64,000 nt of DNA from Cepaea nemoralis (taxonomy: Eukaryota > Mollusca > Gastropoda > Stylommatophora > Helicidae), in the NCBI GenBank assembly GCA_014155875.1, contig JACEFZ010027103.1:298501-362500 (forward strand), in the 5' to 3' direction. Positions within the stretch are counted from its first letter, which is position 1. Every line of letters starts with the position of its first letter. Below the pieces are notes generated by a model. That model was not told the origin of the DNA, searched no databases, and worked only from the letters and a program-made list of their open reading frames with translations. This document shows positions 5,553-44,262 of this stretch, piece after piece. The translations under genes were made by a program, and so were the position numbers.

Positions 5553-8500
5553 TGTGACGAAACGCGTTTATCTGTCTTGGGTCGTGAAGATCCCGCACTA
5601 TTTTGGCGCGTCATCGGGGACTTTCCCAGCTAAAAATAGACTGAGGGAAGCCGATGGAGGACTTACTATCTAGAATCTTCTCGAAACACCGGAATTCGAG
5701 TAACCCGTGATGCTTGGTATCGCTCTAAATTCCCGTGCAGAGAGATCTAGAAACTCTAGGCGGGGAATGACGGTTTCCCGAGAAAGTATCTTTTCTCAAG
5801 AAGCACTCGCTTCTAGTGCGCAGTGAGTTGGCACGAAGCGGGAATGTGGCTAAACCAGTCATTCACTTACTTGTGTTCGACGAGAACAGACGCAGGCCTG
5901 ATGTGAGCCAGTTTTGTGTTGCGTCTCACCTCAACCATGATTCGGCTGACTGTTATGGAAAGGAAGCTGAGAAGCCCTTGAACAGTTCGGAAGCTGACTG
6001 GAGATCTGGTTTCTAGTCATTCAGGTAGATATTTGTTTAAATCATTTAACTTTGTACGTGTGTTCCACACGCCATTGTTCTAATCCTCATTACCTATGCG
6101 GATGTCCTTGCATACTAATTAGCAAACCGATCGATAACGCAGTTGACGGTTAATCATGGGTTTGTTTACCGTGTGCTCGCGAATCAGCTGTTAGAAACGC
6201 CGTAATGTGATGTGGGCGATTTGGGTTCCAAATATATGTACCATATATTGCCAATCGTTGCATATATTAGGTTGCTGTGTTAGAATAAAACATAGTTACT
6301 TGTGCCGGATGGAAACTTAGATTATGTCAGTCAGTTGCTGAAGCCAGAAGAACGGTTAGAAAACCAGGTAAGTTGGTAGGTGGAGATTCAGACAAAATTG
6401 TGCTTAGTTACTAAGTAAAGGAAGAACGTAGTTCTGTGCCACCAGGAATGATGTAACTATTGTGTAATAACTTAATAGTGAATTCATTGTGTGGAACAGC
6501 GGAGTTCTGTGGAAAGGTAAGTGGCTTTGGTGCTATAGCTATATATATATATATGATGTGACATTGTGTATATATATATTAGGTCATGGCATGTGATACT
6601 TCCTGGAGTAATTCCGAACGCCGAATAGCTCGACGCGTGATAACACTGAGTGCCGTCGCGATATAAATATGCGTTCTGAATTCTTGTCTGAGCTATCCTG
6701 TTTCTTTCATACTGGCGCTAGTGCGAGTGAATGCTAAGGTGCTGGAAGTATGGAAGGATGCAAGGAGGCGGTATGAGACTGGGGAAATATAGGATATGGG
6801 GGATGTGAAAGCAAGTTATGAAAGTATGAGTTGGTAGGCCACACCAACGATGAAGTTCAGTCCATGCCAAGGCTAAACCACTTGGGGAGGACAGAACTGG
6901 AACATTACCCTTGGAACATGTGGGGAACATGTATTTTCAAGAAGGCTTCTTGACTCTAAGGCAGAGTCTGATAAGAAGAGTTTGCTGTGGCGTGGGCAGG
7001 TGATCCCACCAGCAAACAGGCTTGTGTACATAGTGGATGTGATCATGTCCTATCCCTATATCCCGAGGGATGGTATATTGATCAAGATTATGTTTCTTAA
7101 AGTACATTGATGATGTTAGGAACGAGTCCAGGGACTCTTTACCTATTTGTTTAGTTCGATTAAATTAGAACAATAACAGCCTTGTATCACTACTGACGTT
7201 AGCGACGACTGGTAGATGATTAGGGATAGGTGAGACCTACGATCAGACTCGTCATTCTGATTTCTTGCTCTGTTTGACGGGCTGTTCTGTGAGGCCCGCT
7301 GACATTTGTGAACCCATGCTTTACTACTCTCCATATAGAGATAATGCTTTAGTTATATGCATAACTAAGTAGCATGACTGAGGGTTGAGTAGTTATTGGT
7401 AGGATGCATGTGGACTAATGTTTGGGCCAGTATACTCTCACCGGTCGCTCTTCCTTTTCAGGAGTTTGCCTGTTGAGGAACCCGTCAACTATAATTGTTG
7501 TTGGCAGGAAACCACTTCGTGTGACACAGCGAAGGGTTCAGTTCTTTACTTATCACGCCAGACTCAACCACACCAGGTACCCAATGTGATTCACCATGCG
7601 TGAAGTTTGCATCAAGAAATATACCTGTCCTGAAGGTGCACTTGTGGGAAGTGATGGTTTGTGATCGTTTTCAGCTAATAGAAAATACTCTGTTTTTGCC
7701 AGGAACATTTCAGCATTTTGAGTAATCATGCTCAACGAAAGGAAACACCGGTCCGTCTATTATGACGGGGGTTCTGCCTAAACGCAGAAGTAACTGATCT
7801 TCAGACACTTGAATGGTTCTTTGGACAGCTCTAGTGGCAAGTCTTGAGAAGAACTACACCAGTGATTGACTTGTGGCAAGTGTAACCCGGTGGAAGGGAC
7901 TATGGATTATAGTCCAACCTGAATTGTTTCCGTGAAATAGATGTCTGATTCTATTAATGTACTGTCTCAGTATGAAGATATAAACTGTGTTCGCGAAGGA
8001 CTCAGTAACATTTCAGTAGCCATATCTGCTTCTACAAGCAGTGTGACTGTAAGAGACCATTGAATTGGTCAGTGACATTTGTTCATCCATGTTCCTGTGA
8101 TGTGATGAAGGGACCATTGAATTGGTCAGTGACATTTGTTCATCCATGTTCCGGTGATGTGATGAAGGGACCATTGAATTGGTCAATGCCAGATCTGTTC
8201 TGCAGTGGGATTGTGCTATGAGTGACAGACCATTCGATTGGTCAGTGACTATTTGAGTTCATCGAAGTAACGACTACTTGGAGTCAAGTCCAGGAGGATT
8301 GTCTCCCAACCGGTATTGTTCGAGAACTGTATTAACAGTGACTCCGTGGGAGGGATATAGATGCAGTTGGTCCAGTGAAGTGTGGTCCAGCAGTGACTCT
8401 ATTGTTGTGGATCCACGCTCGGGAGACGGAGTGGTCTCCAAGGTTCTAGTCATCTCACTGGAAGGAAGCCGGGTGAGTGGCGGACCGACTGGACGGGACA

Positions 8501-8900
8501 TCTGCATCCAGTCTACTTCTCAACTCGATGAAGACACCTACATCTCTGATTCTGTCTCTACTCTATCTTCTATTTGTGTAAATAGATTCTTCTATCAGGA
8601 TGTTCATTTCAGTTCTATATTCTTAAGGGTAGAATAAACTTTATGTAAGTTGACTTGCTCTTTGTATAATGATTGAGTGTGGTCTCGGACGATGCCTAAG
8701 TGTTCATTGTTCCACAGGTGTAGGTAGTTAGTGGGGGTCTAGAATCTGGAGGGGCTTGTAGACGTAATTAACTAATATGAGAACAACCACAGAGTAAAAA
8801 TGTGTATCTGCTCGTCCAACCCCTGGGGCTAGAATACACGGGAGTGCCAGAGACACCTCGGGTGTGGTTCACTCTCAATACCCCAGGTGAACTCGTCACA
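5553..8900 (+). mobile_element. Element A: 3.35 kb TGTGACGA-ended element without long ORF
   Basis: It begins TGTGACGAAACGCG and ends GAACTCGTCACA, giving an 8-bp perfect terminal inverted repeat (TGTGACGA/TCGTCACA). It is flanked by a 5-bp duplication GGGTC (5548-5552, 8901-8905) inside the 19-bp minisatellite. No ORF above about 120 codons and no transposase, RT or integrase motif is visible. It has a promoter-like CCAAT (6251) and CATATATTA (6261), two AG|GTAAGT donors (6368, 6518), a pyrimidine-rich TTCCTTTTCAG acceptor (to 7461) and AATAAA (8633), 262 bp before the end. Element B (40586-44262) has the same ends and order of signals. It could be a very long solo LTR, or a non-autonomous element of an LTR or Ginger-like class. 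Orientation is inferred from these signals. Confidence 0.7.
8055..8250 (+). repeat. 57-bp tandem repeat inside element A
   Basis: Units start at 8055, 8112 and 8169, with a diverged fourth at 8228. Each starts with GACCATTGAATTGGTC, which has a 5-bp GACCA/TGGTC stem, followed by AGTGACATTTG. The unit lies in the putative 3' exon of the element. Confidence 0.8.
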
Positions 8901-9405
8901 GGGTCTTACTTAGATAGTAAGTTGTTACTAAGATGGTGGGTTGTTAGTTAGATGGTGGGTTGTTTCTTAGATGGTGGGTTGTTAGTTAGATGGTGGGTTG
9001 TTAGGTAGATGGTGGGTTGTTTCTTAGATGGTGGGTTGTTAGTTAGATGGTGGCTTGTTAGTTAGATGGTGGGTTGTTTCTTAGATAGTAAGTTGTTACT
9101 TAGATGGTGGGTCTTACTTAGATAGTAAGTTGTTACTTAGATGGTGTGGTCTTACATAGATAGTAAGTTGTTACTTAGATGGTGGATTGTTAGTTAGATG
9201 GTGGGTTGTTTCTTAGATGGTGGGTTGTTAGTTTGATGGTGGGTTGTTTCTTAGAAGGTGGGTTGTTAGTTAGATGGTGGGTTGTTTCTTAGATAGTAAG
9301 TTGTTACTTAGATGGTGGGGTCTTACTTAGTTAGTAAGTTGTTACTTAGATGGTGGGTTGTTAGTTAGATGGTGAGTTGTTGCATAGATGGTGGGTTGTT
9401 ACTTA
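8901..9405 (+). repeat. 19-bp minisatellite, right half
   Basis: Continuation of the TTAGATGGTGGGTTGTTTC array interrupted by element A. Variants include TTAGATAGTAAGTTGTTAC. Confidence 0.88.
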
Positions 9406-10330
9406 ACAACTATCCGACATATTGTGCTTCTAGGAGGAGGGGGGATGAGTTGTGCCAAAAGGAAATCCTGAAATGATGGGGCGTTATCTCCAGAATGTAA
9501 CCTATTCAGTTGTTTAGCCACCAATACACCACTCCAGTGTTGCTGTCGAAGATCTCCTGGCTGTCCGATGTTCAGGTGGTGACTGAGGGCCCTGGACGCA
9601 GCCAAGTTGTGGAGTTGGAAGGTTGGGGTCAGTTTGGTTCTGTTGGGAGTGAAATGATATTTGGTTGGAAATACTTCTGCTCGGGAGATGAGTGGTATTT
9701 TTCTGTGAGATTCTATGGGAATTGATTCAGATGAAGTTAATGTTAATGTCCTTACGGGACGTCACAGTCAACACCGGCATTCTTTGCTGTTGTGATCTCT
9801 TGGCAAGTTTATGTTCTGTAGTTTGTTATTGCTTTCAGATGAAGACCGACTCTTAAAAGATATAGAAGCTCGTGGGCTTTGCTTGTAAAATCGAAGTTGT
9901 TTCGATATAGCGGAGCGTCGCTTCCGTAAACCAATAAACAGTTAGTTGGTAATTTAACTTTTTAGTTATGCATACAGTTATTTCTTTAGTTAAATGGTCA
10001 GACCAGCTATATGCCGCCAAAACGATAACAAAGAGGAAATGTTTCGTACATTATATTCAACTAAGAATGAACTATTGCTCAAATATACCGAGGCTTTAAT
10101 AAATAAATGGTTCCACAACTTTTGTGCGGACAGAAAGATTTAGTCTTAAGTTTGTTATAAAATGTTTCACATTAGATCATGTTTTGCGACTGTAAGTTGT
10201 AACTATTTCAGCCATAATATAATCCATGTATGAACTGTATATGATATATGGCTCTACAGTATTTACCTGTCTTTAACTACTGTGTTAAATTAGGCAGGTA
10301 CTTACTTCGGTTAGTCAGCTGGGTGCACTT
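9406..10330. other. No gene recognised; contains a dispersed-repeat fragment
   Basis: No convincing coding region. Sequence at about 9750-9850 (GACGTCACAG... CTTGGCAAGTTT... GTAGTTTGTTATT) resembles 12675-12780 (GACGTAGCAG... CTGAGCAAGTTTT... GTTGTTTGTTCT), so it is probably a degenerate copy of an unnamed dispersed repeat. Confidence 0.4.
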
Positions 10331-10332
10331 AC

Positions 10333-10730
10333 CTGTGATAATATAGGTGCATAAATGGGCACTACTTTCAAAGTCACAAACGTGTGGTTGGAGTCATCGC
10401 TGCTCACCTGAGCCTTGTTGCTGTATCTCCCGTTAACCGCGCAGTAATACTCCACCATGGTTGGGGACAGTTCTAGATTGGAGTTACAGACTCGTGTGTT
10501 AGGTCTGTTAAGTGTGTAGTTCTGTGAATGTTTTTTTTTTCATTCTATTAAGTTTGTAGTTCTGTGAAGTTTACAATTCTGTGAGGCTTCTTAGTTCTGT
10601 GAAGTTTGTTAGTGCCATTGACGAATAGAGGTGACTAAAGCTCACACTCTTATCACTGTTGAAAAGGCAGATTGCTGTGTGCGAGAAGCACGCTTTCCAA
10701 CGGCTCCAGAAGAGAAAGGCCTCTCCTAAA
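10333..10730 (-). pseudogene. Immunoglobulin-like domain exon, probably broken
   Basis: On the minus strand the 3' part reads CNSNLELSPTMVEYYC then AVNGRYSN... and FVTLKVVP: the YYC of an Ig F strand followed by a G-strand-like segment. It ends in CAG directly followed by a GTAAGT donor (10327-10332). Further upstream in another frame is WFICLGEAFLFWSRWKAC, with a Trp/Cys pattern that could be the front of the same Ig domain. Between them a short ACTTCACAGAACTA repeat introduces a stop. Secreted FREPs of gastropods carry Ig domains like this behind a signal-peptide exon. The family match is from memory and unproven. A matching signal exon lies upstream at 23172. Confidence 0.45.
10500..10612 (-). 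repeat. Short tandem repeat within the Ig-like exon
   Basis: Three or four imperfect copies of a roughly 15-bp motif (minus strand ACTTCACAGAACTA), with a run of ten T on the plus strand. The repeat carries the stop and frame changes that interrupt the Ig-like reading frame. Confidence 0.6.
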
Positions 10731-10739
10731 CAGATAAAC

Positions 10740-11205
10740 CAGAGGATGACCGTGGTCGAAGTTAGACCAAGTCAGACTCTTTGTGGGCTATGACCAATGC
10801 GTAGAGTACCTCCATATATATCATTGTTTCAGTTACAGTTAATAACATGTGTTTTAACAGAGATTATATGAAACATTGTAAAAGTGTCTGTGCGATAATA
10901 TAAGATTTAAAACTACGCGGCTCATGTTACTTTTCTGCAATTAATGTGTCACGCTGTGATTCTGGAATTACAGATGGAAGAATGTGACAGCTAAAAACCA
11001 GAACAGTCTCATAACTCATACCAATGTCAAGTGTTGCATCTGACAACGCAAAGTACTGTTTAACAACGAGTCAAATTGTACTCACGACAGCTTGAGGACA
11101 CATCTTGTCAGCTCTGTATCATGCCTGAACCCATATAACGGGACACGACACTTCCAATGTCAAAGAGATACTTCTAACATCTTAAAGTAGTGTTAACTAC
11201 AGCTA
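10740..11205. other. No feature recognised
   Basis: No coding or repeat signal apart from a CATATATATC TATA-like stretch near 10812. Confidence 0.5.
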
Positions 11206-11210
11206 ACTCA

Positions 11211-11382
11211 TTGTTGGGTGGTTGGTTGGTTGGTTGGTTGGTTGGTTGGTTGGTTGGTTGGGTGGCTGGCTGGCTGGCTGGCTGGCTGGTTGGCTGGCTG
11301 GCTGGCTGGCTGGTTGGTTGGTTGGTTGGTTGGCTGGTTGGTTGGTTGGTTGGTTGGTTGGTTGGTTGGTTGGTTGGTTAGA
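11211..11382 (-). repeat. (CCAA)n array, probable retrotransposon tail
   Basis: About 170 bp of TTGG/TGGC repeats on the plus strand, or CCAA on the minus strand. It lies about 45 bp beyond the stop of the minus-strand I-like element ending at 11423, and the intervening CTAACTAACC grades into it. It is best read as the expanded 3' tail of that element. Confidence 0.75.
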
Positions 11383-11422
11383 TGGTTAGTTAGTCGACAG
11401 ATCATCCTCACTGCACATCGAA

Positions 11423-12150
11423 TCATTCACTCCATAAGTGCTTGGATCGCCTACTCAGTAAATTCAGCAGCATGAAGCGGCTAACGACACCAGTTCTGTT
11501 ATGATTTATTAATCTTCTTTGGCTTCCTGTGTAGTGTTCTTGTTTAGCCAAACCTCTTTTAATATGCTGTTCTTGCATCCTGACCATTGTTGTAGATTCA
11601 CGGTCATCACTGTCCTGGGCAACAGGTCCCTTCAAGGTCCTGGCTAACGTGGTAGGATCGCTGATTCTTCCGAAGTAGGAGAGTATCTGCCTGCACGGCG
11701 AGGAACCACCAGTCTGCACACCAATAAGACAGACATGGGACAACGGATACTCACGCAAACCTCAGGTTCGGTATGACATCACACCGATGTTGGACAACAG
11801 GATGTCTTCATCCGACATACAGGACTTCACGATGGAGTTCACAGCCAGTGAACGCAAGCAAGCAAGCAAGCACAGAAATCACTTGGTTCTCGCAAAAGTC
11901 TTACTTCTCTTAAAGCATTCAGAATGTCAACCTGGTCCATGCCTCGTCCGCCCTCCGCAATAGCCCTACCTGCAAGCATGTCAGCCCGCTCATTTACTCG
12001 TACACCCGCAAACACTGGCACAAAAATGAAACTAATCTTTGCCAGCCGAGACCGCTCCAGAGTCAACAACCACTCTCTTCTCGCTGTAATTTCGTAATCG
12101 TTTTCGAAAGTTGTTCTCAAGAAACCACGAAAGGCATGTGGTGGATGAAA
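11423..12150 (-). pseudogene. I-like non-LTR element: RNase H and C-terminal relic
   Basis: Minus-strand pieces in order: REWLLTLERSRLAKISF, then FAGVRVNERADMLAG, the RNase H signature of I-type elements (usual form HAGVRGNERADxLAG), then MDQVDILNALREV. After a frame change near 11830 come a degraded Cys-poor segment and HIKRGLAKQEHYTGSQRR... LINHNRTGVVS, a typical C-terminal region of these polyproteins. RT and endonuclease are absent, so the copy is 5' truncated. A related fragment lies at 60946-61403. Confidence 0.65.
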
Positions 12151-12355
12151 TTTTGAGGGCAGCCGGCAGATAGTTGTTGGTTATAGTCACAAATTTCGCG
12201 ACGGTAGGCAGTAGATCTCTTTAACGGAATAAAGGCTACGGTCACCGGCAATTATGGTCACGCCAGGAAAGAAAGCAACGGCAAACTACCTTTTTTAAGT
12301 TGCCTAGTTTAATATGATTCGCCTAATTACAGATCATCACAATAAAAGGAAAGGG
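12151..12355. other. No feature recognised
   Basis: No coding or repeat signal seen between the I-like relic and the E3 endonuclease relic. Confidence 0.4.
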
Positions 12356-12660
12356 ACATTGAAATTAGCAACATAGAAAGTTCAGACGTTAAGCGACGAC
12401 AGAAAATTAGATAACATCAAACAAGAAATGGAGAGAGAGAGAGAGAAGATCAATATATTAGGAATGTGTGAGACGAGATAGAAAACGGCAGAGATTAAGA
12501 CAGGGGAGGATTCTAAGATTATTTATTCTGAAGGAGACGAATGGCAAAGAGGTGTAGCAATTATCTGGGATAGGCAAATATCAAAATCTGTTAAATGATA
12601 TTGGGCTGTATCAGACAAGGTTCTATTAGTAAAATTAATAGACAGACCTTTTAGCATATT
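12356..12660 (+). pseudogene. E3 non-LTR element: endonuclease fragment
   Basis: Plus-strand frames give INILGMCETRWKTAEIK... IIYSGGDEWQRGVAIIWD, the N-terminal apurinic-type endonuclease of Nimb/RTE-like elements, with stops and a (GA)n stretch at 12430. It ends at a poly-T run at 12660. The next 225 bp carry an unrelated dispersed repeat, and the RT part resumes at 12885. Confidence 0.6.
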
Positions 12661-12884
12661 TTTTTTTTTTAATTTAGTTGTCACAGGACGTAGCAGTTAA
12701 CCTTAGCATTTTGGCTGTTCTTGATTCCTGAGCAAGTTTTACGTTCAGTTGTTTGTTCTATCTAGACCAACAAGCAGCGGTTACAACAGATGGCGAGACA
12801 TCAGATTGGGTTGACATCAAGCAATGAGTCCGTTAGGGCTGTGTGATGTCATTATATTTGTTTAACCTGCACGCCTAAAATATA
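12661..12884. repeat. Unnamed dispersed repeat inside E3
   Basis: Starts at a ten-base T run and resembles the sequence near 9750-9850. It separates the endonuclease and RT parts of E3, so it either inserted there or marks a deletion. Confidence 0.4.
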
Positions 12885-13244
12885 ATGAGAAATATAAGAG
12901 ATGATATAAACAGGGAGCTATATGATACCCTAAATATCGGTGGTCATGACGTACCAGAGATTCGGATTGCTGATGATACAGTATTGCTATCCACAACAAA
13001 GACTGCTATAGAAAACTTAATAGCCTCAAACCAATTGAATAGTGAAAATCACATCTTATATCTAAACATAGCAAAAACGAAGATAATGCATACAGATAAA
13101 ACCACAATGGAGAAAGACATATATGTTAATAAGGAAAAATTGGAGGTGGTGGAAAATTTTGTATATCTTGGGTCATTGATTACCAACAGCGGTGACACAA
13201 TGAAAGAAATTAAACGGCGACTATCAATTGCTCTTCAAAGACTC
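12885..13244 (+). pseudogene. E3 non-LTR element: RT fragment
   Basis: MRNIRDDINRELYDTLNIGG... PEIRIADDTVLL contains the RT catalytic YADD-type motif as IADD, followed by LEVVENFVYLGSLITNSGD and IKRRLSIALQ. It stops at 13244, where a minus-strand E1 element inserted. The continuation (RILRACIFPIATYAF...) is found at about 16495, over 3.2 kb away. Confidence 0.75.
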
Positions 13245-13262
13245 AATCAATCAATCAATCAA
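13244..13262 (-). repeat. (TTGA)n tail of the E1 copy
   Basis: AATCAATCAATC on the plus strand, immediately after the E1 stop codon when read on the minus strand. Confidence 0.85.
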
Positions 13263-14575
13263 TCATGTGCCATGCTGGAAAGCGTGGGCGGTAATGACTC
13301 GCCATTTCACTCGATCATTAGAGTCGTGGATCAGCTCAGTGTTCCTGTCTCGTCCATGCCATGTGGCCAAGCCATCCAGGTATTTTCCTCTCGTTCTTCT
13401 TCTTGGTCTGTTCCCTTCGATCTTGCCAGTTGTCACAAAGATCTCCAATCCATTTCTTCTCATAACATGTCCAAAACAATTTGACTGTCTACGTCTAATT
13501 TCTCTAATCAATTTACGATTGTCATTTGTCTCCTGTAGTACTTGGTCATTGTGTTTTTCTGTCTGTCCATGGTATTCTTTGCATTTTCCTCAGAAACCAC
13601 ATTTCTGCAGCCATCAGATGTTTTTCAGCTTGACTGCTCATTGTCCAAGTTTCACATCCATACAAAAGAACAGGCTCTATGTATCCCCACAACACTCTTT
13701 TCCTCGTTTCAATTGACATCTTTCTGTTGGTCAGAATGTTTTTCATCTTGCTAAAGGCTGCTTTCGTTATGGCGATTCTTGTTCTAATCTCTTCAAGGCA
13801 TCTCCCATCAGATGTTATGACGGTTCCGAGATAATTGTACCGATTCACTTGTTGAAGAATATTCCCATTTACTTGTATATTACATTGTGGTACTTTCTTC
13901 TTCCTAGTGACGACCATAACCTGTGTCTTTTTACAATTAAATTCTAACCCCAGTTGCTCACTGTGTACAACAACCGCATCCTCTAATTGTTGCAAATCTT
14001 GTGCATTGTCTGCAATCAATACTGTATCATCTGCATATCTAATGTTATTGATGTTTCGTCCTCCAATACTGATTCTATTTATATCTTCTACATTTCTGAA
14101 AATATTTTCACTGTATGGGTAAAAATGATGTGGAGACATTACACATCCCTGCCTAACACCTCTCTTAATAGGTTGATATTGTCCCAATTCATTATCAATC
14201 CTTATGGCAGCTTGTTGTTTCCAATATATGTTTTTTATAAGTCTAATGTCTTTCCCATCAATTTGTAGATCTGCAAGCATATCCACCATTTTGACATGTC
14301 TAACTCTATCAAAAGCCTTTGTGTAGTCAATAAAGCAAAGATGTATATCCTTGTTTACTTCTATGGACCTCCAATAGCTGCTCGCAGCATATACACAGCA
14401 TTTACTGTACCCTTTCCTCCTACAAACCCACATTGTTCTTCCCCTATTTCAGGTTGTATTTTCTTCCTCACTCTTTGCATGATAATTCGTAGCAAATTCT
14501 TTGTGATGTGACTCATTATACTAATTGTTCTATGCTGATCACATTCCAAGGCTCCTGATTGACAAAAACAACTGA
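13263..14575 (-). pseudogene. E1 non-LTR element, 5'-truncated RT copy
   Basis: This is the best-preserved E1 copy. From 14575 downward it reads SIMSHITKN, QPEIGEEQCG, FIDYTKAFDRV, GVRQGCVMSP, RYADDTVLIAD, PVLLYGCETWT, HVMRRNGLE and the terminal FQHGT-stop. Motifs A, B and C of the reverse transcriptase are intact, but frame changes occur near 14433 and 13540. Endonuclease is missing. The TGA stop at 13263-13265 runs directly into a (TTGA)n tail (13244-13262). The copy is inserted into E3. Relatives are the 'Nimb/craniofacial-like' RT family of invertebrates. Confidence 0.85.
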
Positions 14576-14594
14576 ATAACTTATGAAATGGGAC

Positions 14595-16490
14595 AGACTT
14601 CTTCTTCTTCAGCGTCCCGAGCCATTGAGGTTCTTTGCTGCAGATACAATCCGTCTCCATTCGTCTCTCTGGTGGACCTTCTCTTGCCAGTCGTTGATTC
14701 CAATTGCTTGTAGGTCTGTATATGTATTATCTCTCCACCGCCTTCTTGGTCTACCTCGGGGTCTACGGTCATTTATTTCCTGAGTGTAAGCGAGTTTTGT
14801 TTCCCTATTATCTTCCATTCTTTCTATATGCCCCAGCCATTGTAGTCTATTAGCCTTCATGATACCAGTGATTAGCGGGGACTTAAACAGATCATAAATG
14901 TCTTTGTTACTTCTTCTTTTCCACTCTCCACTTTGTGTATCCTTAATGGGTTCAAAGATGCGTCTTAAAATTTTGTTCTCAAAGGTTTGTAACAAGGCTT
15001 CGTCTCCTTTCGTTGTACTCCAGGTTTCAGAGCCCTACAGCACAACTGGTCTGATCATTGTTTTGCATATTGTGATTTTGATGTTACGAGATAGCGCCTT
15101 TGATTTTAGTAGATGTTGTAGTGCATAGTATATCTTATTTCCAGAGTTGATTCTAGTTTGTATTTCTTCCCTTATAATGTTGGAGCAGTTGAAGATTGTA
15201 CCCAGGTATTTGTATGTTTCCGTTCTTTTAATGGTCATATTATCTATTTGTATGTGGCCAGAGTTTTTAGCCATTCCGTCTCTTGAACTTACCATATATT
15301 CTGTCTTATCTTGGTTGATAACCAGCCCCGTCTGTTGAGCCTTTTCCTTTAAGTGAGTCAATATTTCAAATGTCTTTTGTTCACTTTGCCCTATAATATC
15401 TATATCATCTGCATAACCAAGCAGCTTGGATGTTCCTCCAATATCACATTCCTCCTTTACCTTCCTTACAACTTTCTCTAGATCCAGATTGAAGAGTAGC
15501 GGCGATAGTGCATCACCCTGTTTCAAGCCAGATGTTATTTGGAAGGGGTCTGATTTCCTGCCTTTATATGTTACTATATTATAATTATCTTCCATGCATA
15601 GTCTGGTCATGTTGATTAACTTCCTTGGTATTCCAAATTCCTGCATAGCATTCCATAGACTATTCCTATAAGCCTTTTTAAAATCCATAAAAATGTTATG
15701 GAGATCTCTTTTATATTCCCAATTTTTTTTGGCTAGTTGTCGTAAGATAAATATCTGATCTATTGTTGATCTGTTTTGTCTAAAACCCGCCTGGTAGTCA
15801 CCTAATATGTCTTCTGAATATGGTTTTAGTCTATTTAGTAATACTGCGGATAGTATCTTATAGCTTGTGGACAGTAGTGATATTCCTCTATAATTTCCAC
15901 ATTGGAACTTGTCTCCTTTCTTAAAGATAGATATCAATAGTGACTCTTTCCAGTCATGGGGTAATTCTTCTGTCCTCCAGATTTTTATTATTAGTTCGTA
16001 TAGCTTTAGATGTAATGCATGGCCACCTGTCTTTTTAAATTCAGCAGCAATTCCATCAGTCCCAGTTGCTTTATTGTTTTTAAGTCGTGTGATTACATAT
16101 AGGATTTCTTCAAATGTAGGTTCTTTAATTTGTGGTTCGCATATTAGAACCTCTTCCTGTGGGAAAATGTTACTTGGAGCTTCACAATTTAGTAATTCAA
16201 CAAAATATTCTTTCCATGTGTTGCACATTTCCTTATTGGTATTTATCATATTCCCATTTTTGTCTTTTAAACCATATGTGTTTTGTTAGTGCCCTCGTTT
16301 CATTGACTTCAGTTCTTTAAACAAATTTCTGGATTAATTTTTCTGGTGATCAGTTTCCATATCTTTGATTATATTACTCATATATTCTCGCTTCTGCTGT
16401 CGGACTATTTTTGTAGCCTCTTTACATTCATTTCTATAATGCTCTTCCTTTTGGATGTTGACGATGTCATTTAACCATAAATGTCTGGCA
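14595..16490 (-). pseudogene. E2 non-LTR element, 5'-truncated RT copy
   Basis: From 16490 downward: a linker (HYRNECKEATKIVRQQKREY), then a long RT frame at 16249-15035 with DGIAAEFKK, NYRGISLLSTSYKIL, YQAGFRQNRSTIDQIF, FMDFKKAYR, GLKQGDALSPLLF, GYADDIDIIG and YKYLGTIF. A stop near 15035 is followed by the C-terminal region (RLQWLGHIERM, RPRGRPRRRWRDN) at 14995-14609. RT motifs A to C are present; endonuclease is absent. The frame ends NLNGSGR-stop, with the TGA fused to a short (GAA)n tail. It is adjacent to E1 and inserted with it in E3. Confidence 0.85.
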
Positions 16491-34303: not shown

Positions 34304-34307
34304 ATAT

Positions 34308-34472
34308 ATTCTTCTTCTTCTTCGGCGTTCCGAGCCATTGAGGTTCTTTGCTGCAGATACAATCCGTCTCCATTCGTCTCTCTGGTTGACCTTCTCTTGC
34401 CAGTCGTTGATTCCAAGTGCTTGTAGGTCTGTATATGTATTATCTCTCCACCGCCTTCTTGGTCTACCTCGG

Positions 34473-34477
<5 letters not shown>
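34308..34477 (-). mobile_element. E2 3' fragment in TA array
   Basis: Minus strand: RWRDNTYTDLQALGINDWQE-type sequence, ending at RDEWRRI... NLNGSE with the (GAA)n tail TTCTTCTTCTTC (plus strand) directly against TATATATAT. TA sequence lies on both sides. The normal stop codon is lost in this copy. Confidence 0.8.

Positions 34478-34547
<70 letters not shown>
34478..34547. repeat. (TA)n array
   Basis: About 70 bp of TA between the E2 fragment and the Gypsy 5' LTR. Confidence 0.95.
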
Positions 34548-34548
<1 letters not shown>

Positions 34549-34551
<3 letters not shown>

Positions 34552-35062
34552 CAGAGTCTCACAGTCATAGTACAAGGGAAACAATACACGGAAAGAACAC
34601 GGGAAGAAGGGAGATAAGAACGACCCGAACGTTCGAAGTCTCGAACGTTCGATAACATAGGGGTTGAATTGCCTACTGCGCAATAGACCCAGGCGGAGTT
34701 CGCCTAAAGCGTGAAAAGCAACACTCACGAGGTGTGCGAGACACGCCGTGTCCACCGGACACAAGTCGAGGGGCAGACGGCAACTGGACAGCGGACTGAA
34801 AGGAAGGTTTAGCTTCTAGGGACAGAACATATAGATATTGGTTTAGAGTCTAGAGATTGTTGTTAATAGACTAATGCTGTGATGTATAAATTATATGATG
34901 CTTTGTCGATGTGTATGTAAGATATCATGAAAGAAAGTGCTAGATGACTGTTCATTAAATCTACCTGATATTAAAGTAGAATTGATAATGTTGCACGTGG
35001 AGTTATGTTAGATCTTTGATCCCCTGTCTGAACCCGAGTCTTCTATCCCCTAGACGTTGACA
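34549..35062 (+). mobile_element. Gypsy-1 5' LTR (514 bp)
   Basis: Begins TGTCAGAGTCTCAC and ends GACGTTGACA (TGTCA/TGACA ends). The same sequence recurs as the split 3' LTR at 40466-40585 plus 44263-44530, and in diverged form at 59476-59800. It contains GAACCCGAGTCTTC near the 3' end, shared with the Gypsy-2 LTR. Confidence 0.88.
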
Positions 35063-35633
35063 GGTTTACTTGGGGGAATCGTGCCGTTTTGGCAAGCCCA
35101 AGACAATTTAAACTAATAGATTGACGGCTCTTTGCTTTGCCAAGTAAAAACGATAAATATACACGACAAAGTTTAGTCATATTACAGCTATTATTCTTCT
35201 GAAAATCTGCTCTATCTGTCCCTCTGTAGAAGTATAACATAACAATGTTTACTCTCCAGTAACATGATATTGACTTGACGACAAATAACTGTGACAAATT
35301 ACTGATGTTTCCTCTCCAACAAAAGAGTAAGCTAAGAGAAGTTTTTCGATGTAAAATTGTCTCCTGCAGAAGTGAAAAATAACGGAGAACCAAACAGCGA
35401 TAGTACAGCAAAGACTTCAGTAAACCAGATAAGTCCCATATACTTCTTACATATTGTAATTTTTCGTATGTATTGAGATATATTGTACTCATATGCAAAT
35501 TTTTTTGTCTGAGTAAAACATACTTGTGTGAGTACTAGAAGTAAATAATGAAGGGACATAACCAAAAGGTGTACATCAAAATTTTTCTAAGGGAATTAAT
35601 TTCTAAAAATTTAATAGAACTTAAAAGTAGACA
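35063..35633 (+). other. Gypsy-1 leader
   Basis: Non-coding sequence between the LTR and gag. A primer-binding site is expected directly after 35062 (GGTTTACTTGGGGGAATCG), but no tRNA match could be assigned by eye. Confidence 0.5.
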
Positions 35634-36565
35634 ATGTCAACACTAGAAAGGGGCATTGAGCTAGGGCTGAAGCTAGGCTATACAGCAGATAAACTAGCAG
35701 AATGGAGTCAGAAAACTCCAGAAAATCTAGTAAAGGAAGAAAAAGAACATGAAAGACAGGAACGTGCAGCAGAACGAAAACAAAAGAAACTTGAAATCGA
35801 CGCCGCCAACAAAAAGGCAGAAGCGGCTAACAAAAAGGCAGAAATTGAAGCGACTACCAGAAAGGCAGAATTAGACGCAGAAACCAAAAAACAAGAAATA
35901 GAAGCAGCGATTAAACAGAAAGAAATTGAGCCACAGACACAATTAAAAGTTAAACAATTGGAGATTGACTCAAATATGGAAATCCCAGTTAACAAATTAA
36001 AAAGCAAAGAAGAAGAACAGAAGTATAACAAGTATAAATGAATCATCAAACCCTTCTGTTCTGGCGATTCGGTCAGTGCAAGGTCTCAGAACTTTGAGTA
36101 TTTAATGGCCTACCATAAAATTCCGAAAGAGGCTTGGCCGATGATATACATGAGACATTTGGCATTAGAGCCATTCAAAAGTTATTTGAAACTATCCCGC
36201 AGGACATGAGAAAATACTACGATTACATCAAACGTAGAATCATGCAGCATTTTTCTTTAGATACAGCAGGATACCAACTGCAACTCTCAAAACTATGTCC
36301 CGAACCTAACCAAACGTTTATAGATTACGTTTCGATCGTTCAGGATATATTTAATAAATGGATCTCATCAGCTAAAGTCAACAATAGCTTCGAAAACTTG
36401 AGAGATCTCATGATAATAAATAAAATCATAACATCAGTACCAACAGCATTCTCTAAATATTTACAGCAGAACGATTGCCAAACTATCGAAGAAGTCGAAA
36501 ACAAAGGGGCTGCATTCTATACAGCAAACCGTGACATCTTTCTTCTAAACACTATTCAAAACTAG
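35634..36565 (+). pseudogene. Gypsy-1 gag, frameshifted
   Basis: Residues 1-50 form a globular start (MSTLERGIELGLKLGYTADK), followed by about 80 residues of Ala/Glu/Lys coiled coil with repeated ANKKAE/TRKAE heptads. After a stop at 36041 another frame carries SVSARSQNFEYLMAYHKIPK-EAW, the start of a retrotransposon gag (capsid) domain. A further shift near 36150 leads to the frame 36134-36565 with RKYYDYIKRRIMQHF and QLSKLCPEPNQTFIDYVS. So gag is present over its full length but broken twice. Confidence 0.75.
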
Positions 36566-36631
36566 GTAGCAGCTGTCACAAACACAAACAGGTTTAAACC
36601 ACCTGAAAATAAATATAGATCAAAACCAAAG

Positions 36632-38057
36632 TTGACACCTTGCCAGTACTGTAAATTAAGACACGAACAGTATGCTATTTGTGATAAAACACCGAATTAC
36701 AAACACCACCTAAAAATGATGTTGGAGAAGCAGAAAACCAAACGAGATAACTTTAGAAGAGCTGTTAAATGTTACTTCTGTAAAAGTTATGGCCACTATT
36801 CAGCTGTTTGTGAAGGACGTGAAATGATGAAGCAAGCGAATGCAGTACTAGTTGACACCTTCAGTGATGATGAACTAGAAAGTGCAAATCAGTATGAAAG
36901 TAGAAATCAGAGTGAAAGTGAAGTAGTGAATGTCCTAGAAGTCATTGACATGTTTGATTATGATGGTTGTAACATATGTAAAAAGTTTCAACTGGACACA
37001 GCCCTTGAATGCGGCCATACAGTACTCATAGCAAATGAAATGGCCAATGCCGCCTTGTCATCAAAAGGCAAACTTCAGTTTGTAAAGGTGTTTGTAAATA
37101 ACCAAGCATGTAAAGTAATGTGTGACAGCGGCTCGACCCTGGTTGGGGTAAGGAAGATACTAGTGAAAGACAGTGACTATACAAATGACTATGTAACATG
37201 TAGAACATTTGCAGGCACCATTGAGAGGTACCCCTTAGCAATGACCGAAATTCGAACACCATTCGTGTCAGGACACGTGCTATGTGCCGTGTTGCATAAT
37301 CTATGTGCTGATGTGATTGTTGGGAATCTCCCCAACGTAAAAGCATGCTCAGAAAAAGAAATTCAAAAATGGGAACAAGAAAATTGCAAAAATGAAACAA
37401 GCAATAACCACATAACACCTGAACAAAGTGTCGCTTCTCCAACTGCCAAAAGCATAAGGGAGACCACCAATGACAAAATTCGTAAAGAATTTAATGAGGT
37501 GTAAGAAACCCCTGAATCAACCAACAATGATTTCCGGCGAGATAAAAATCAAAAACCAGAAATACCAAAATTTCCATGGGACACTATAATTGACAAAGTA
37601 TTACTAAAAACAAACAAGTGTCATCATACGTGTTCCACTCCAATCCATCATTTTTCAACGACACATAAAAGAGAAACCAATCTAATAAACAAATCTGCTG
37701 AAAGTGTTACAAGTACCAAAGTAACATCACCACACATCTATCATGCAGACAAACAGTATGCAAATAAGACCACACAAACAATTAACTATACACAGAATCA
37801 AAATACTAAACGACCGCATACGAACAAACTGCTTTATCGCATAAACAGAAACAACAAACGATGGTTCTCAACACCCATCGACACGGAAATAATCAGCAAA
37901 GTTGAAACAAAGTCACCATCTATCAGCCTGACAAACAAACACAGCAATTTCTCTAAAACATACAACACAACCAATAGAACAAAACACCCACATTCACCGA
38001 ATAGTAGAACTGACATAGGAAAACTACTGACACTTTTGCTACTTTTGCTATCGACAT
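36632..38057 (+). pseudogene. Gypsy-1 nucleocapsid and protease region
   Basis: The frame starts with a Cys-rich PCQYCKLRHEQYAIC segment, then a canonical CCHC knuckle CYFCKSYGHYSAVC (about residues 47-60). After an acidic linker the retropepsin-like domain follows, with active-site MCDSGSTLVGVRKIL (DSG) and later HNLCADVIVGN. The stop at 37502 is followed in the same frame by 180 codons of Asn/Thr/Lys-rich sequence ending TLLLLLLST at 38057. No RT motifs follow: the RT domain is missing in this copy. Confidence 0.78.
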
Positions 38058-38329
38058 AACTCGCAACAACACTGCTTATCTATCAAAATATATCTTTGTT
38101 CACAATCTTCAAAACAAACCAACTATCTATCATGATCACCATCTTACTCATGTATCAGTCAACATTGCGCCAGATTGAAATTGAAAACACCCTAATACAG
38201 TTCATTGATTCCTATTGGTACAAAAATGCTGATATATTTCTGATATATAGCTATTGTAAATTCATATCCACTCTTACATTGTTTAGGACTATTATTACAT
38301 CTATAATCATACAATGGTATATTATTTGC

Positions 38330-38830
38330 ATTTGTAAGAGCATCAGTTTAGAAGATGCAATTTGTAAATTGAAATCCAGTTTTTCTAATCCACCCATCCT
38401 GCGGTTACTAAATTTATAATCTCAATTTATATTAAAAACAGATACCAGTATTATCGTCATTGGAGGCTGCCTAATGCAGAGGTATGAAGGAGTAGATCAT
38501 CCTATCCTGTATGTGAGTCGTAAGCTGAAACCAGCTGAGACAAAATACTCGACAGCTGAATTCGAAGCATTAAGTCTGGTTTATTGTGTTCTGAAACTAT
38601 AGAAATTCCTACGAGGCAGCTACTTCCTAGTCCAGACAGATAATATCGCCATTGCTGGTCATCAAAGAGGGTAGACCGAAGAATAACAGAATCGCCTGCT
38701 GGTCTCATATTTTGCAAGATTTTAGTTTTGAGATCCCCATATTAAGGGCTCTAATAATGTTATACCTGATATTTTATCAAGACTACCGAACACACCAGCT
38801 GAGTAACGTCAACTACTCAACCAGTATGCC
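38330..38830 (+). pseudogene. Gypsy-1 RNase H remnant
   Basis: The frames SISLEDAICKLKSSFSNPPIL, then KEGRPKNNRIACW... LILYQDYRT align with the intact RNase H of Gypsy-2 at 57345-57821 (SISLEDTICKLKS, IKDGKPRNNRLARW). Many stops. RT is absent between 38058 and 38330. Confidence 0.75.
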
Positions 38831-38846
38831 ATATTATAAGCTATGA

Positions 38847-40465
38847 TAGTGTTTTTAGTAGGACTCATAACAGTCAGTGTATCGATACACTCACCAGAAT
38901 ACTGCAGCTTATGTACCTACAGCAGATCCGAAATTATTATACTGTTTCAAACGAAAGGACTTCGAAGCTAAGTTTATTCACTACTGAAGGAACCACCAAT
39001 CAGTTACATCCAACAGACATAGAGAACATTGCTATTACTTAATATGAACTCATCACCAACTATAGAATGAAACAGGACAGTGGACATGATTCGATCTACA
39101 CGTCACTATTCATGCGACATAGTTGAAACAACCACACTAACTTTGACAGATTTACTTCTATGTATTAACTGGGACAGGACCATCTACACACGTCGGTAAA
39201 GAACGACAAAACGAGGATCATCGATGGAATTAGTTAGTTTAATTAGTTAAATTCTAAATAAATGCATATATTATTACCTGTTTAAAATTTATTAACATAT
39301 ACATTTTTCGGTCAATTTTTTTTTTCAATTATATATATTTCACATAAAATACGTTGAACAGGATATCAACGGAAAAGTTCTATATAAAGATTTCGTTTAA
39401 ACCATTAACTTTTTTCTAAATCACGTTAAACCATTGCATAAAACAATGCAGTATTGCCGGTACAATCAGTACCCATTTGTCATACTATATTTTCAAACTT
39501 CGCCAAATTTTTCGAAGGGCGACAACCTGTACCTTAACTTAACTTGTCAATTGTAACGAATAAGAATGCTTGAATGAAATACGAATGAAACAGAGCGTGA
39601 ATGAAATAAATGAAGGAATGATGTACATAGCGTACAATTGTACGCACAACTAGTTAATTATCATTTGTTTGCGTCTGATGTAAAATGTAACACTTGTCTA
39701 AAGATTTTTATACATGTTTAGGTAAACTACAAGATAGGTAACAGGGTTAGTTTAAGAATCACTGCTCGGATATCCAAGTCATGAAGTACACATATTGGGT
39801 AACTCAGGACAACGGAAATTCAAGCTCGTAACGCTTAGAAAAATATTAAACACCACAAACAACACACACACGTACCACACACATTAAACACATCAATTTA
39901 CAAACACATTCACAATACTTTACAAAAACAGTTAACTTACATACACATTTATAGACTAACAAAAGGGAGATTAGTAAACACTAATAGGACAACGGGGACG
40001 CTAGCAATTAGTCGATGAAAACAAAGTATTCAGATATTAGGCACCACATGCAACATACGGAAGTAAAAGTGTATATAAGTACACATGAAGGGGAAAGGGT
40101 TTGCATTCATTCTTAAAGAGGCCAAGGCAATTTGCCTTGATGTAACTCTGTAAAAGGAGTACATTATCCTGGGTATCATATTGGATACTTGAGAAGGGCG
40201 TAGTGTGGAAACACATGAATCGTCAGGATACTTCGGTCTGGGTAGCTAGAATTTAAGAATAGGAAGAGAAGTGAGGCTCTGTAGCAACCACCCTAAATCG
40301 CAGTACTAAAGATGCATGAGTTGCCAATGTTATAATACAAATAACTGACTTCCCATAAACTATTTTACTATCTCAAAGAAAAGATTTATTCCTCTTATCC
40401 CTTGACAGAATTAGTTCAGACTAATTAAAACATCCAAACCTATAAGAGAGGAGGAAGAGAGACCC
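38847..40465 (+). other. Gypsy-1 conserved non-coding region and polypurine tract
   Basis: About 1.6 kb without ORF, where integrase would normally be encoded. Blocks are shared with 57822-59475, for example AGGGCGACAAC, GATGTAAAATGTAACACTTG and AGAATCACTGCTCG. The purine tract AGAGAGGAGGAAGAGAGA (about 40446-40463) precedes the 3' LTR. Confidence 0.7.
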
Positions 40466-40585
40466 TGTCAGAGTCTCACAGTCATTAGTACAAGGAAAAC
40501 AATACACGGAAAGAATCAGCGTCCAAAGAAGGGAGATAAGAACGACCCGAACGTTCGAAGTCTCGAATGTTCGATAACATAGGGG
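40466..40585 (+). mobile_element. Gypsy-1 3' LTR, first part
   Basis: TGTCAGAGTCTCACAGTCAT... ATAACATAGGGG matches the 5' LTR start. It is interrupted after AGGGG by element B and resumes at 44263. Confidence 0.9.
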
Positions 40586-43500
40586 TGTGACGAAACGGAC
40601 TTATACAGTCCGTTCTCTCTATTATATCCCTTTGAAGGGACGGCGACAAGTTGGTATCCCTTGATTTGGTATTGAGAAATTAGGGGATTTCCCCGTCGAA
40701 AGTAGTGCGTGACGTCACTATTCTGGTTACTTTTAGAAATATCTAGAATTTCCCCAGTGAAGTGCGTACGTGGTTTGGGATCACGAAGGACGTAAAATTG
40801 CCTCATGGAACACGGGGGTGTGGAATTATCCGTGACACAGGATTTCTCCGTGGCCCATGGAATTCACTCGGCCCGTGAAGGCATTGTGAAGACGCACTTA
40901 GGTGGGCAAGATCAGTCGCACGTCGGACATCGTCGAGAGCAGACCACAGAAAGTCACTGCTAGAAGATGTCGATAATCGCCGCCATGCGGACATCGGCAG
41001 TGAAAGATTGTGATTCTGAATCACATGTATGTTGAATACTTTAGCTATTGGTTAACTGTGGTCCATATATATATATCGCGCCTACAGTTCCGAGATAATG
41101 AATTGCCGGCCGAGATAATCTCCGCGAAGCACGTAGACTGTCTGCATTTTTAATTAGCTATTATCGATTGGCTAGGTAATGTGTTTGACAGACGCGTGCA
41201 GAAGCCGCCAACAGCTGGGAGTGTGTATATCCAAAAGACCTGAACGTGTGTTCTTTCTGATAATGGTGTAAATCTCATGTTTGTAGATGTGAAAGGATGA
41301 TTAACTGTTAGTTTACAAATGATTTGCATTATTAGTGATATGAATGTTATTATCACTGCTTTGTGCAAGGAAGATTCAGGTAGTGTACCAGGTGTGTAGG
41401 AAATGTTACTTAAGTAGTGGAGTGATTACACACTCAGGGCAGGATGTTTGTCAGTCATTACATAGAGAGGCTAGACGGGGTTAATAATGATAAGTTAGGG
41501 CTTATTATTATGGTTGTGTAATTTGCTTCGCTAGATTAGGATTGTAACTTAGGTTTAGATCAGTGGTGGTGATTATTCTATGAACCAAGGTGTCATTTCA
41601 TTGGAAGGATAGGCAGGTAAGTACTTGCTGTGTGATGATACCAGTGTTATTCCAAGTAGGCAGAATTGTGTTATATTTAGTGGATAGCAGTTGATAGGAA
41701 GTGGTTAGGATACCTAGTGTCACTGCTTGGTTACATGTCCGTCCGCTAGAGTGACCATGCGTGTTCAATCTGACGTATGTTTACCCAACCGACTGGGTAG
41801 TAGGCCGGTCCGCCCGATCCGTTGGGTTGCCGATCCGACCCAAAGCTATCGTGCGTAAGCGATGGTTGAACATACCCGACGGAGAGCGATGCGGCGCTCT
41901 GTAATCGAGTCCTTGCGTCTAGGTAGATGCGAAATGTGAACCGACTCTGGTCTATCTCTATTATTCTACTCTTCCAGAAATCTGACTATGTTCAAGGCGT
42001 AATTGAGTTACTACAGTGAAGTAGTAGTAGTATGATGGAGGTAATGGTCCCCCAAATGGAGGAGCTGGAGGTTGAGGAGAGGGGGGATGGAGGCCTTGCT
42101 AAAGTGGATGACGTGCCCTAATTCGTCACGGGACAAGATGCACTGGGCCCACAGTAGCTGTGGGAAAGTGTATTGGTGGGTGGCCACCAAAGCTTTGCTC
42201 GACTGGCACAGAAATGACCGACCTGAATGAAGGTCGGTTAATAAAAGGCAACCCATGTTCTGGGACAGGGATCCCAGGACTGAAACTATGGCTGTGTTAT
42301 GAGTTGGTTATTTAAGTTTAACAATTCATGAGTTATCCTTGGTTAACACTAAAGTAATGAATTATAAGGAGTATAATTTGTTATGGTCAAATAGTTTTTA
42401 AGGTGTAGTTGATCGATCCATGGGTGAAGGGATTGATTAATTGGTGAGTATGTATGGAAGGAGGATATGTCCGGCTGGGCACCTCCAAGATAAAGTAATC
42501 ACTACACTGAAAGGGAAGTAGGTGTATTTGTTGATTGATAGTTGAAGATGAAACAGGAGTGGACTAGCACCAGGCGAAGGATGCTTTGACAGAGTCATAC
42601 AGTCGACTCTGGTGCTAGGGGGCTATCGGTGGCCCAGACGAGTTACTTGACTATGCACTTGTGTACTATCGCTTTCTGTTACAGCCTCATGCCGATACAT
42701 TATAGTTAAGAGTGGATCTAGAATGTGATGATCTCATACATATAAGCATATTGTATTATGTATAACTGAGAGGCATGTGTAATGGTGGAGATGCAGTATA
42801 GTCCTTGTTGTAGTTGAGTGCTCACACCAACCTCTCCGTGTTTCAGGATCTGTTATAGATATATCCTAAGGAGATTCCTGAGTTTAACCATGAGCTTAAA
42901 GGGACCGGCTCGTTCCAGTGCCGATCAAGATGATGGTTAAGGTATTACTGGGAGCGGTCATCGGAATCTGCCGAAATCAACGTTTGAAAGATCTGAGTAA
43001 AGAATCAGGTGGTAGGTCTATGCTGAGACCGCCGCACAGAGTCCGACGATTGTCTTTAGATCCAGGTAGGGTCCACGACTGAAACGTCTATTGATTCTGG
43101 CCAGTGAAGCACTGGTGTAATTCGAACTCAGTGAGGACCTTGATAATTTAAGGGCACGGAATTTCAAAGTTGATATGAGTGAACTCTGTTACCAGTCACC
43201 ATGGCCAGTTTGTTATGCTTCCGGCCCGGCTGGGTCGTCATGGGACACCTTGTATATTAACATACTTATGTGGTGTGATTCTACAAAGGTTCACTTTATT
43301 GAAGCCTAAACTTGGTCCAGTGACCGAAAACATTGTATTACTTGTTGGTGTGAACACCGGAGTGACATACTTGATAGGGTATGGATCTACCCATTCCTAG
43401 GTGTTGAACATAGACAGTGTATATTGTGAAGTGAGGGATATCCATTGAACAGGGTAGTGACTTGTGCTTATGTGAATATAGTATACTCCTAGGAACAGGT

Positions 43501-44262
43501 GAATAGGTGAAGTGTTGCATTCACATGTTAGACTTTGCAAGTGACATTGTGTTAATGTGGAGCGAACGCTAAGGTTATAGGTGACTTATTAGTGTGTCGG
43601 TCACTTACGAGACAAAAGAGCAACCAGGCTCTTGTACATAGTGTACGGTGCTACACGTACTTTTCTGCAGTTGGAAGACAGCTAGTATTCTAGGGTCGGC
43701 CTAGACTTTATCAGTAGAGTGTGACGGGTGAGATAGTACGACATTGAGGGAGGACCCTTGATCACCGGTGCAGTGTCTGTCAGGCAGTGGTAATACGCTT
43801 GACCAGCCCGAGTTATTGCTTACAGTGGGAAGGGAGAACTGTGGAAAGGAGGCAGACCTTGAAGTTCCTGTCCCCTGGAGGTTCCTGGGTGAGTCGTAAC
43901 CACGACAGGACAACCGCACGAACTGTAGTCGCAGTCTCCATGATGAGGAAGAATCATCTGTAGATCTTCTCTTGTAAATAGTGTCTTCTCGTCCGGCTTT
44001 CAGCCATCCTTCTCTGTGTTGCAGTTGACGTAGTGATAAATTAAATTTTGTTGTGTTAGCTATGACTTTGTGTATTGATATGACTGGTGTTTTGTCCGAG
44101 CCACCTGTGGGTGGGAAACCCTAGGTGGGGGAGGGGGAGGTTCAGCTGTCCCGGCTTGTGTGGGGCCTGGTAGATGTAGAGTTCTATTGAGGTGGTCGGA
44201 GCAAAGGCTGAGGATATTATCTATAGTGGCAAACCCGTCCAAGCCCCGGGGGTCTTGTCACA
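40586..44262 (+). mobile_element. Element B: 3.7 kb TGTGAC-ended element without long ORF
   Basis: Begins TGTGACGAAACGGAC and ends GGTCTTGTCACA, flanked by AGGGG (40581-40585, 44263-44267). The host LTR sequence reads continuously when it is removed. The longest open frame is about 80 codons with no recognised motif. Signals in order: reverse CCAAT (ATTGG 41046), TATATATATA (41066), AG|GTAAGT donor (41617), CTCTCCGTGTTTCAG acceptor (to 42846) and ATTAAA (44040), 217 bp before the end. The putative last exon is 1416 bp against 1439 bp in element A. The interiors are diverged. The same mobile class as element A is inferred from ends, duplication size and layout. Confidence 0.75.

Follow-up and report, generated by a model that had tools for sequence, protein, structure and literature searches.

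Solo long terminal repeats from two sister families of giant-LTR, reverse-transcriptase-less, probably Gmr1-like retrotransposons in Cepaea nemoralis

Several described groups of long terminal repeat (LTR) retrotransposons lie close to the elements reported here. The Gmr1 clade of Ty3/Gypsy elements carries integrase upstream of reverse transcriptase (RT) (PMC6238403); TR-GAG elements are LTR elements that lack autonomy and RT and carry Gag, with or without protease (PMC6022998); LARD, TRIM and Helenus/Ajax are further non-autonomous LTR elements (PMC6022998, PMC10886601); and the giant Gypsy elements Ogre and Burro have very long LTRs, those of Ogre measuring 1.9-6.5 kb (PMC6431247). The stretch analysed here (the window) comprises 64,000 nucleotides of Cepaea nemoralis DNA (Mollusca; Gastropoda; GCA_014155875.1, contig JACEFZ010027103.1, positions 298,501 to 362,500, forward strand) and holds two insertions, termed E1 and E2 (Table 1). 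Both are almost certainly solo LTRs, belonging to two sister families of giant-LTR, non-autonomous Gmr1-type Ty3/Gypsy retrotransposons whose full-length parents carry their own shell protein and protease, have no RT and probably borrow it.

Compared with the Gmr1 clade, the present elements are alike in that a relative from the same genome (family F4) has a SCAN-type Gag and the order protease, integrase, RT, RNase H, and in that the RT-less open reading frames (ORFs) keep protease followed by the integrase zinc domain. They are unlike it in that the E1, E2-like and F3 (third) families have neither integrase core nor RT and that E1 and E2 reach 3.3-3.7 kb; the likeness is one of gene order. 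The Gmr1 order was observed in F4, and the RT-less E1 and E2 families would take their place beside it by homology to F4. With TR-GAG the E1 and E2 families share non-autonomy, Gag plus protease and absence of RT, but fall outside the definition because their ORF also keeps the integrase H2C2 and C-terminal regions in one frame; they further differ in being animal and Gmr1-type, in having giant LTRs in two families, and in an internal gap that three diverged families have in common. Ogre and Burro share the very long LTRs but have far larger internal regions; the E1-family LTR (3.35 kb) exceeds its internal region (2.96 kb). In LARD and TRIM such domains are absent by definition, whereas the present elements encode a polyprotein. 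Gmr1-like elements, giant LTRs and RT-less TR-GAG elements are each already known from these sources; their combination with retained integrase ends and one gap common to three families was not found in the open-licence literature searched, Repbase lying outside that scope.

Insertions in the window and their full-length relatives

E1 and E2 both start with TGTGACGAAACG and end with GTCACA. With one mismatch allowed, this 12-mer occurred at just these two places in the whole window (0.10 expected; none of 100 shuffles reached two). When the E1 flanks were joined with one copy of GGGTC, the 19-bp steps of the host minisatellite continued across the junction, and retaining both copies gave a 24-bp step. 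The target of E2 is the 3' LTR of an unrelated Gypsy element, the 5' mate of which is 93% identical to the joined E2 flanks and continuous through the site. Because both empty sites could be reconstructed in this way within the window, from the minisatellite register and the uninterrupted Gypsy LTR, E1 and E2 are genuine insertions with 5-bp duplications. An earlier note on this DNA, made from the letters alone, had proposed these ends and duplications and had argued for mobility, and on all of these points it was borne out. It was also right that neither insertion holds a long ORF (no frame of at least 150 aa in E1 or E2; shorter frames were left without a domain scan) and that the interiors are otherwise diverged, E1 and E2 being nearly unalignable at the DNA level. 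The window gave no Rfam match at the gathering score.

Genome searches were made against the window's own assembly (3.47 Gb). The first 248 bp of E1 as query matched at 98-100% identity at the best 40 of 1960 first-look candidates. Same-strand E1 pairs on one contig were seen six times among these 40 places and 10 times among the 40 places of a search with the proposed exons joined (see below), and the 16 pairs were spaced at 6.24-6.35 kb (12 pairs), 12.39 kb (two), 4.8 kb (one) and 14.6 kb (one). Six paired contigs, representing five distinct insertions, were fetched (C12934, C11070, C4273, C5096, C9547 and C13950). All six had CTCCATACAGAG and a primer-binding site (PBS) after the first LTR and AAAGTGGGGGCCTA before the second; the PBS read TGGGGGCTCGTCCGGGAT in two and TGGGGGCCCGTCCGGGAT in four, and is presumably of the tRNA-Pro type. 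The E1-family element is thus laid out as a 3.35-kb LTR, PBS, ~2.96 kb of internal sequence, polypurine tract (PPT) and LTR, with 98.9-99.6% identity (gaps left out) between the LTRs of each of four elements. Since the same sequence is elsewhere paired around PBS and PPT, E1 is an LTR standing alone. The search that the earlier note had advised, for a longer element bounded on either side by one and the same sequence, was therefore positive, and the giant solo LTR was the correct choice among its candidate classes.

Contigs C9547 and C13950 (L009, L014/L015) carry an E1-family element with a ~6 kb nested insert bearing its own ~577-bp direct repeats; they are 99.8% identical at the nested insert, have a common 5' flank, and look like two haplotypes or a duplication of one insertion. 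At C7278 (L003, L049) an E1-type LTR runs into precisely those 12 nt that stand before the PBS, and host TGATGA repeats come next, so that the 3' boundary coincides, oddly, with the PBS start.

For the E2 family, the first 315 bp of E2 were used as query; among the best 40 of 1506 candidates, 20 matched at at least 90% and 20 at 84-86%. On C232 an E2-family LTR is followed by PBS-like sequence and a 252-aa Gag frame, which is 60% identical over 230 residues to the E1-family Gag. On this ground the possibility that E1 and E2 are unrelated families with ends alike by chance, which the earlier note had named as fatal to its grouping, was rejected. At each of 11 further loci read, the 3' end of an E2-like LTR stood upstream of Gag, and eight of these 11 matched the PBS pattern. 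On C19867 a second LTR, which shows 87% identity to E2 across positions 29-3677, lies ~3.1 kb past the first. E1 and E2 accordingly show what is expected of solo LTRs: TG...CA ends, a target-site duplication and a paired form elsewhere.

Exact 5-bp duplications were found at 11 of 17 distinct insertions: E1, E2, C25602, C11579, C22394, C11706, C25197, C25149, C232, C12934 and the F3 element at C9450. C926 is the same site as C25602 and was counted once; C232 is a deleted element whose last LTR base is altered, and its boundary was read allowing for that. Excluded from the count were C8279 and C16980, for which no LTR end was found (the upstream flank of C8279 being that of C25602), C15285, C25731, C303 and C13382 (LTR truncated, rearranged or at a contig end), and C18609, C11070, C13950 and the 3' LTRs L004, L005 and L007 (one outer end read).

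Contigs C25602, C8279 and C926 (L021, L023, L024) have a common 1.5 kb upstream flank (99.8-100%) and LTRs 96.6, 91.7 and 92.9% identical to E2, respectively; they are possibly alleles of one insertion that retained different LTRs. Elsewhere E2-type Gag frames recur at constant spacing (~6.65 kb on C26271, C10851, C19122 and C13319; 6.35 kb on C22713; 5.0 kb on C17003). Such regular rows suggest tandem LTR-internal units, and would fit LTR recombination that forms tandem copies in addition to solo LTRs.

The internal polyprotein and loss of reverse transcriptase

The E1-family internal frame (L012) spans 823 aa after an early stop and gave an Integrase_H2C2 match at E=2e-16, with SCAN and retroviral protease matches below the curated cut-offs; the domain search gave no match to RT, RNase H or integrase core in this frame. 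The content of the E1-family ORF is Gag, protease, integrase zinc domain and integrase C-terminus. A protein search returned three relatives, P0121 (ENA), P0122 (the land snail Candidula unifasciata; the nearest relative with a species name) and P0123 (shrimp). Through P0121 the third family, F3, was found (74 best-scored of 92,680 candidates, a first-look count of word matches mixing families rather than confirmed copies, as is the count of 42,100 given below), with a 1657-bp LTR, the duplication GTCGT, open frames of 934-977 aa in seven of 12 loci read and, directly upstream of its 3' LTR, a likely relic of the RNase H end. Through P0122 came F4 (90 best-scored of 248,664 candidates), in which the 1460-aa frame of L074 runs in the order SCAN, protease (RVP), H2C2, rve, integrase C-terminal domain, RVT_1 and RNase H.

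In alignment with F4, the frames of the E1, E2-like (C19867) and F3 families all omit residues 646-674, residues 680-878 and essentially the whole RT-RNase H part. The C19867 frame was read to residue 752 of a reported 891, and the absence of RT from this element is deduced from the next LTR, which begins ~3.1 kb after the first. SCAN matches lay below the curated cut-off in the E1 ORF (E=0.0026) and F3 (1.1e-4) and above it in F4 (1.8e-7) and the Candidula homologue (1.7e-6); the E2-family Gag frame gave PNMA at E=0.0014, also below cut-off, and no SCAN match. SCAN-related capsids are associated with Gmr1-like Ty3/Gypsy elements. For the deletion-bearing region itself the search returned no match in another species, the sole match being P0121, a protein that reaches 99% identity with copies in the genome studied here.

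Divergence between the E1, E2-like and F3 families is saturated at synonymous sites (pS 0.72-0.81), with pN 0.28-0.38. Within F3, dN/dS was 0.24 (12 copies, 66 pairs), with 0.20 for Gag-protease and 0.34 for the tail. To judge from these ratios and those given below, selection is clear for Gag-protease, whereas on the integrase ends it is weak or uncertain.

A Gag-protease tree of 10 sequences separated E1, E2-like and F3 as a group from F4, Candidula and shrimp with support 0.97. A search with E2-type Gag (best 150 of 42,100 candidates) gave many frames of 891-896 aa and, on C4496, two copies with reported 1455-aa frames and an E2-type Gag 90% identical. From the expected place in C4496, 301 bases encode an integrase core 77% identical to F4, and because of this stretch the E2-type Gag must also occur together with an integrase core. 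The RT-less form may have arisen repeatedly by loss at one and the same point, or recombination may have spread or reversed it; despite the tree support a single ancestral deletion was not accepted as proven. The fuller proposal, that the integrase core and RT/RNase H were lost in a single ancestral in-frame event, which founded a long-lived RT-less lineage of at least three families (43-55% protein identity), each with a selected polyprotein of Gag, protease and integrase ends and borrowing RT and integrase activity, and that the E2 type later gave rise to or recombined with an integrase-core form, is put forward tentatively, with the balance leaning slightly against it.

For such elements to move, RNA would be made from the LTR promoter and packaged in particles of the element's own Gag, and RT and integrase from a complete relative would copy and integrate it in trans; complete Gag-protease-integrase-RT-RNase H relatives are present in the same genome. 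Recombination between the two LTRs of one copy would then delete the internal region and leave a solo LTR such as those in the window.

Several observations weigh against this account. The supply of RT in trans is inferred, not demonstrated, and the best-scored places listed included no autonomous copy bearing an LTR of the E1 type. Each of the five distinct full-length E1-family insertions read has its frame interrupted by a frameshift, a stop or a nested element. E1-family dN/dS ranged over 0.27-0.72 (four copies, six pairs), and the integrase-end part of F3 is weakly constrained (0.61). Four of the 17 insertions (C5096, C9547, C23088 and C7278) had no matching duplication, the duplication at C4273 is 6 bp, and C5207 sits within a run of G.

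Splice-like sites and alternative readings

The splice-like motifs reported in the earlier note are present in both insertions, with one further donor-like site in E1 (Table 1). AGGTAAGT is mildly enriched in the window (seven against 2.3 expected; two of 100 shuffles reached seven). Among close copies, conservation equal to that of the donor site is reached by about half of the 9-mers in E1 and one fifth of those in E2. Across the E2 clade, CAGGTAAGT and TTTCAGG are invariant in the LTRs of E2, C25149, C303 and C19867, which are 79-94% identical over the first 2.5 kb; C25149 and C303 form a 94% pair, so the four LTRs amount to about three independent lines. Equally conserved windows make up 8.6% of 9-mers and 14.1% of 7-mers in this set, a joint chance of ~0.012 if independent, and the conservation is real but modest evidence of splice sites. 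The check advised by the earlier note, whether donor and acceptor are conserved among copies, was positive for the four diverged E2-clade LTRs. The E1-family donors are ordinary in this respect, and the one F3 LTR examined (1657 bp) has neither AGGTAAGT nor TTTCAGG. With that LTR lacking them, splice sites as an ancestral trait of the whole RT-less clade are unsupported.

The solo-LTR reading is compatible with a regulated intron inside the LTR, spliced for mRNA alone while unspliced RNA is copied, so that the intron survives. This is unlikely on balance, yet it is the best-placed of the alternatives: it draws on the E2-clade conservation of donor and acceptor, and it would account for the absence of intron-less copies, none being found when a joined-exon query matched the exon-2 side alone in the best 40 of 2013 candidates. 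Against it stands the position of the transcription signals. E1 and E2 both have TGTAAATAG, an initiator-like TCAG ~30 bp on and then AATAAA or ATTAAA, and signals clustered so close to the LTR end point to a transcription start beyond the 'intron'. The cluster lies in the one internal E1-E2 block that exceeds the shuffled control (see below). Under a short-R model the 'intron' therefore falls in U3, and this model, its start sites being inferred, is at least as good as the LTR-intron layout. Splicing of either sequence is putative and unproven.

Within the proposed E2 intron, CCCACAGTAGCTGTGGGAA (window 42148-42166; E2 LTR positions 1563-1581) contains a palindrome and does not vary among the four E2-clade LTRs compared; it may form an RNA hairpin.

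The earlier note's own interpretation, a non-coding mobile transcription unit whose promoter, donor, acceptor and poly(A) signal within 3.3-3.7 kb yield a functional spliced RNA, is improbable. It can appeal to the same unchanged E2-clade motifs and to the weak alignability of the block directly upstream of the acceptor. That 55-bp block (E=0.03) and the TATA-like/poly(A) block (E=0.003) were the best collinear E1-E2 matches, and an off-diagonal match scored nearly as high as the acceptor block (E=0.075). In sliding windows against shuffled controls (maximum 54), however, the TATA-like/poly(A) block alone was clear at 63-64, and acceptor windows reached 45-46. The E1-family donors are conserved no better than about half of all 9-mers, both motifs are missing from the F3 LTR, the E2-family donor is lost in two contigs while a third at the same insertion site keeps it, and the joined-exon search returned no intron-less copy in its best 40. 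What moves, moreover, is an LTR-internal-LTR element, a coding retrotransposon of which E1 and E2 are leftover LTRs. Ginger-like non-autonomous DNA transposons, the other class suggested earlier, have virtually no chance of being correct: the TGTNR pattern is common to Ginger1 5' ends and Gypsy LTRs, but terminal inverted similarity here is ~8 bp and duplications are 5 bp and varied, as against the 40-270 bp terminal inverted repeats and 4-bp CCGG/CCGT duplications given for Ginger in PMC2836005, and the copies are paired LTRs with PBS and PPT, which refutes this class.

Window features and significance

The coordinates of the features are collected in Table 1. Two further observations concern other parts of the window: a LINE-type RT frame at 26767-28431 matches a public ENA protein along 77% of its length at 98% identity, and 57735-59489 holds stretches 71-82% identical to the Gypsy element struck by E2, apparently a second, diverged copy.

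Table 1. Positions of E1, E2 and associated features in the window
Feature	Position	Strand	Remark
E1, almost certainly a solo LTR, 3348 bp, TGTGACGA...TCGTCACA	5553..8900	+	E1 family of RT-less Gmr1-like retrotransposons
E2, almost certainly a solo LTR, 3677 bp, TGTGACGA...TTGTCACA	40586..44262	+	E2 family, sister to E1 family
GGGTC, left 5-bp target-site duplication of E1	5548..5552	.	
GGGTC, right target-site duplication of E1	8901..8905	.	
AGGGG, left target-site duplication of E2	40581..40585	.	
AGGGG, right target-site duplication of E2	44263..44267	.	
19-bp minisatellite, host of E1	4767..9405 (parts 4767-5549 and 8906-9405)	.	Register intact once one duplication copy is removed
5' LTR of unrelated Gypsy element	34549..34930	+	Uninterrupted version of the E2 entry site
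57-bp tandem repeat within E1	8042..8185	+	LTR copies differ in length and align in overlapping pieces here
Donor-like AGGTAAGT in E1	6366..6373	+	In 14/15 E1-family LTRs read (the two LTRs of an element counted separately)
Second donor-like AGGTAAGT in E1	6515..6522	+	In 15/15 E1-family LTRs; overlooked by the earlier note
Acceptor-like TTTTCAGG in E1	7455..7462	+	In 10/10 LTRs covering the site; TTTCAGG ends at 7462
Donor-like AGGTAAGT in E2	41615..41622	+	In 6/8 E2-family copies and 4/4 diverged E2-clade LTRs
Acceptor-like TTTCAGG in E2	42841..42847	+	In 4/4 diverged E2-clade LTRs
TGTAAATAG, proposed TATA-like box of E1	8577..8585	+	Putative; ~30 bp upstream of initiator-like TCAGTT
AATAAA poly(A) signal of E1	8633..8638	+	Putative; proposed R/U5 boundary region
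TGTAAATAG, proposed TATA-like box of E2	43973..43981	+	Putative; TGTACATAT at this place in C25149
ATTAAA poly(A)-like signal of E2	44040..44045	+	Putative

Elements of the E1/E2 type would be missed by common pipelines, because the mollusc LTR survey used LTRharvest with LTRs limited to 80-1500 bp, followed by BLASTx against a custom database (PMC6238403). To judge from the first-look counts of 42,100 and 92,680 given above, the RT-less families may have many members, and some of the repeats left unclassified in large snail genomes could belong to them. If the giant LTRs also hold a conserved, selectively unspliced intron, they would contain a retrovirus-like RNA-splicing switch within the LTR. 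A shared deletion, together with continuing selection on Gag and protease, would offer a natural test of which retroelement proteins are needed in cis.

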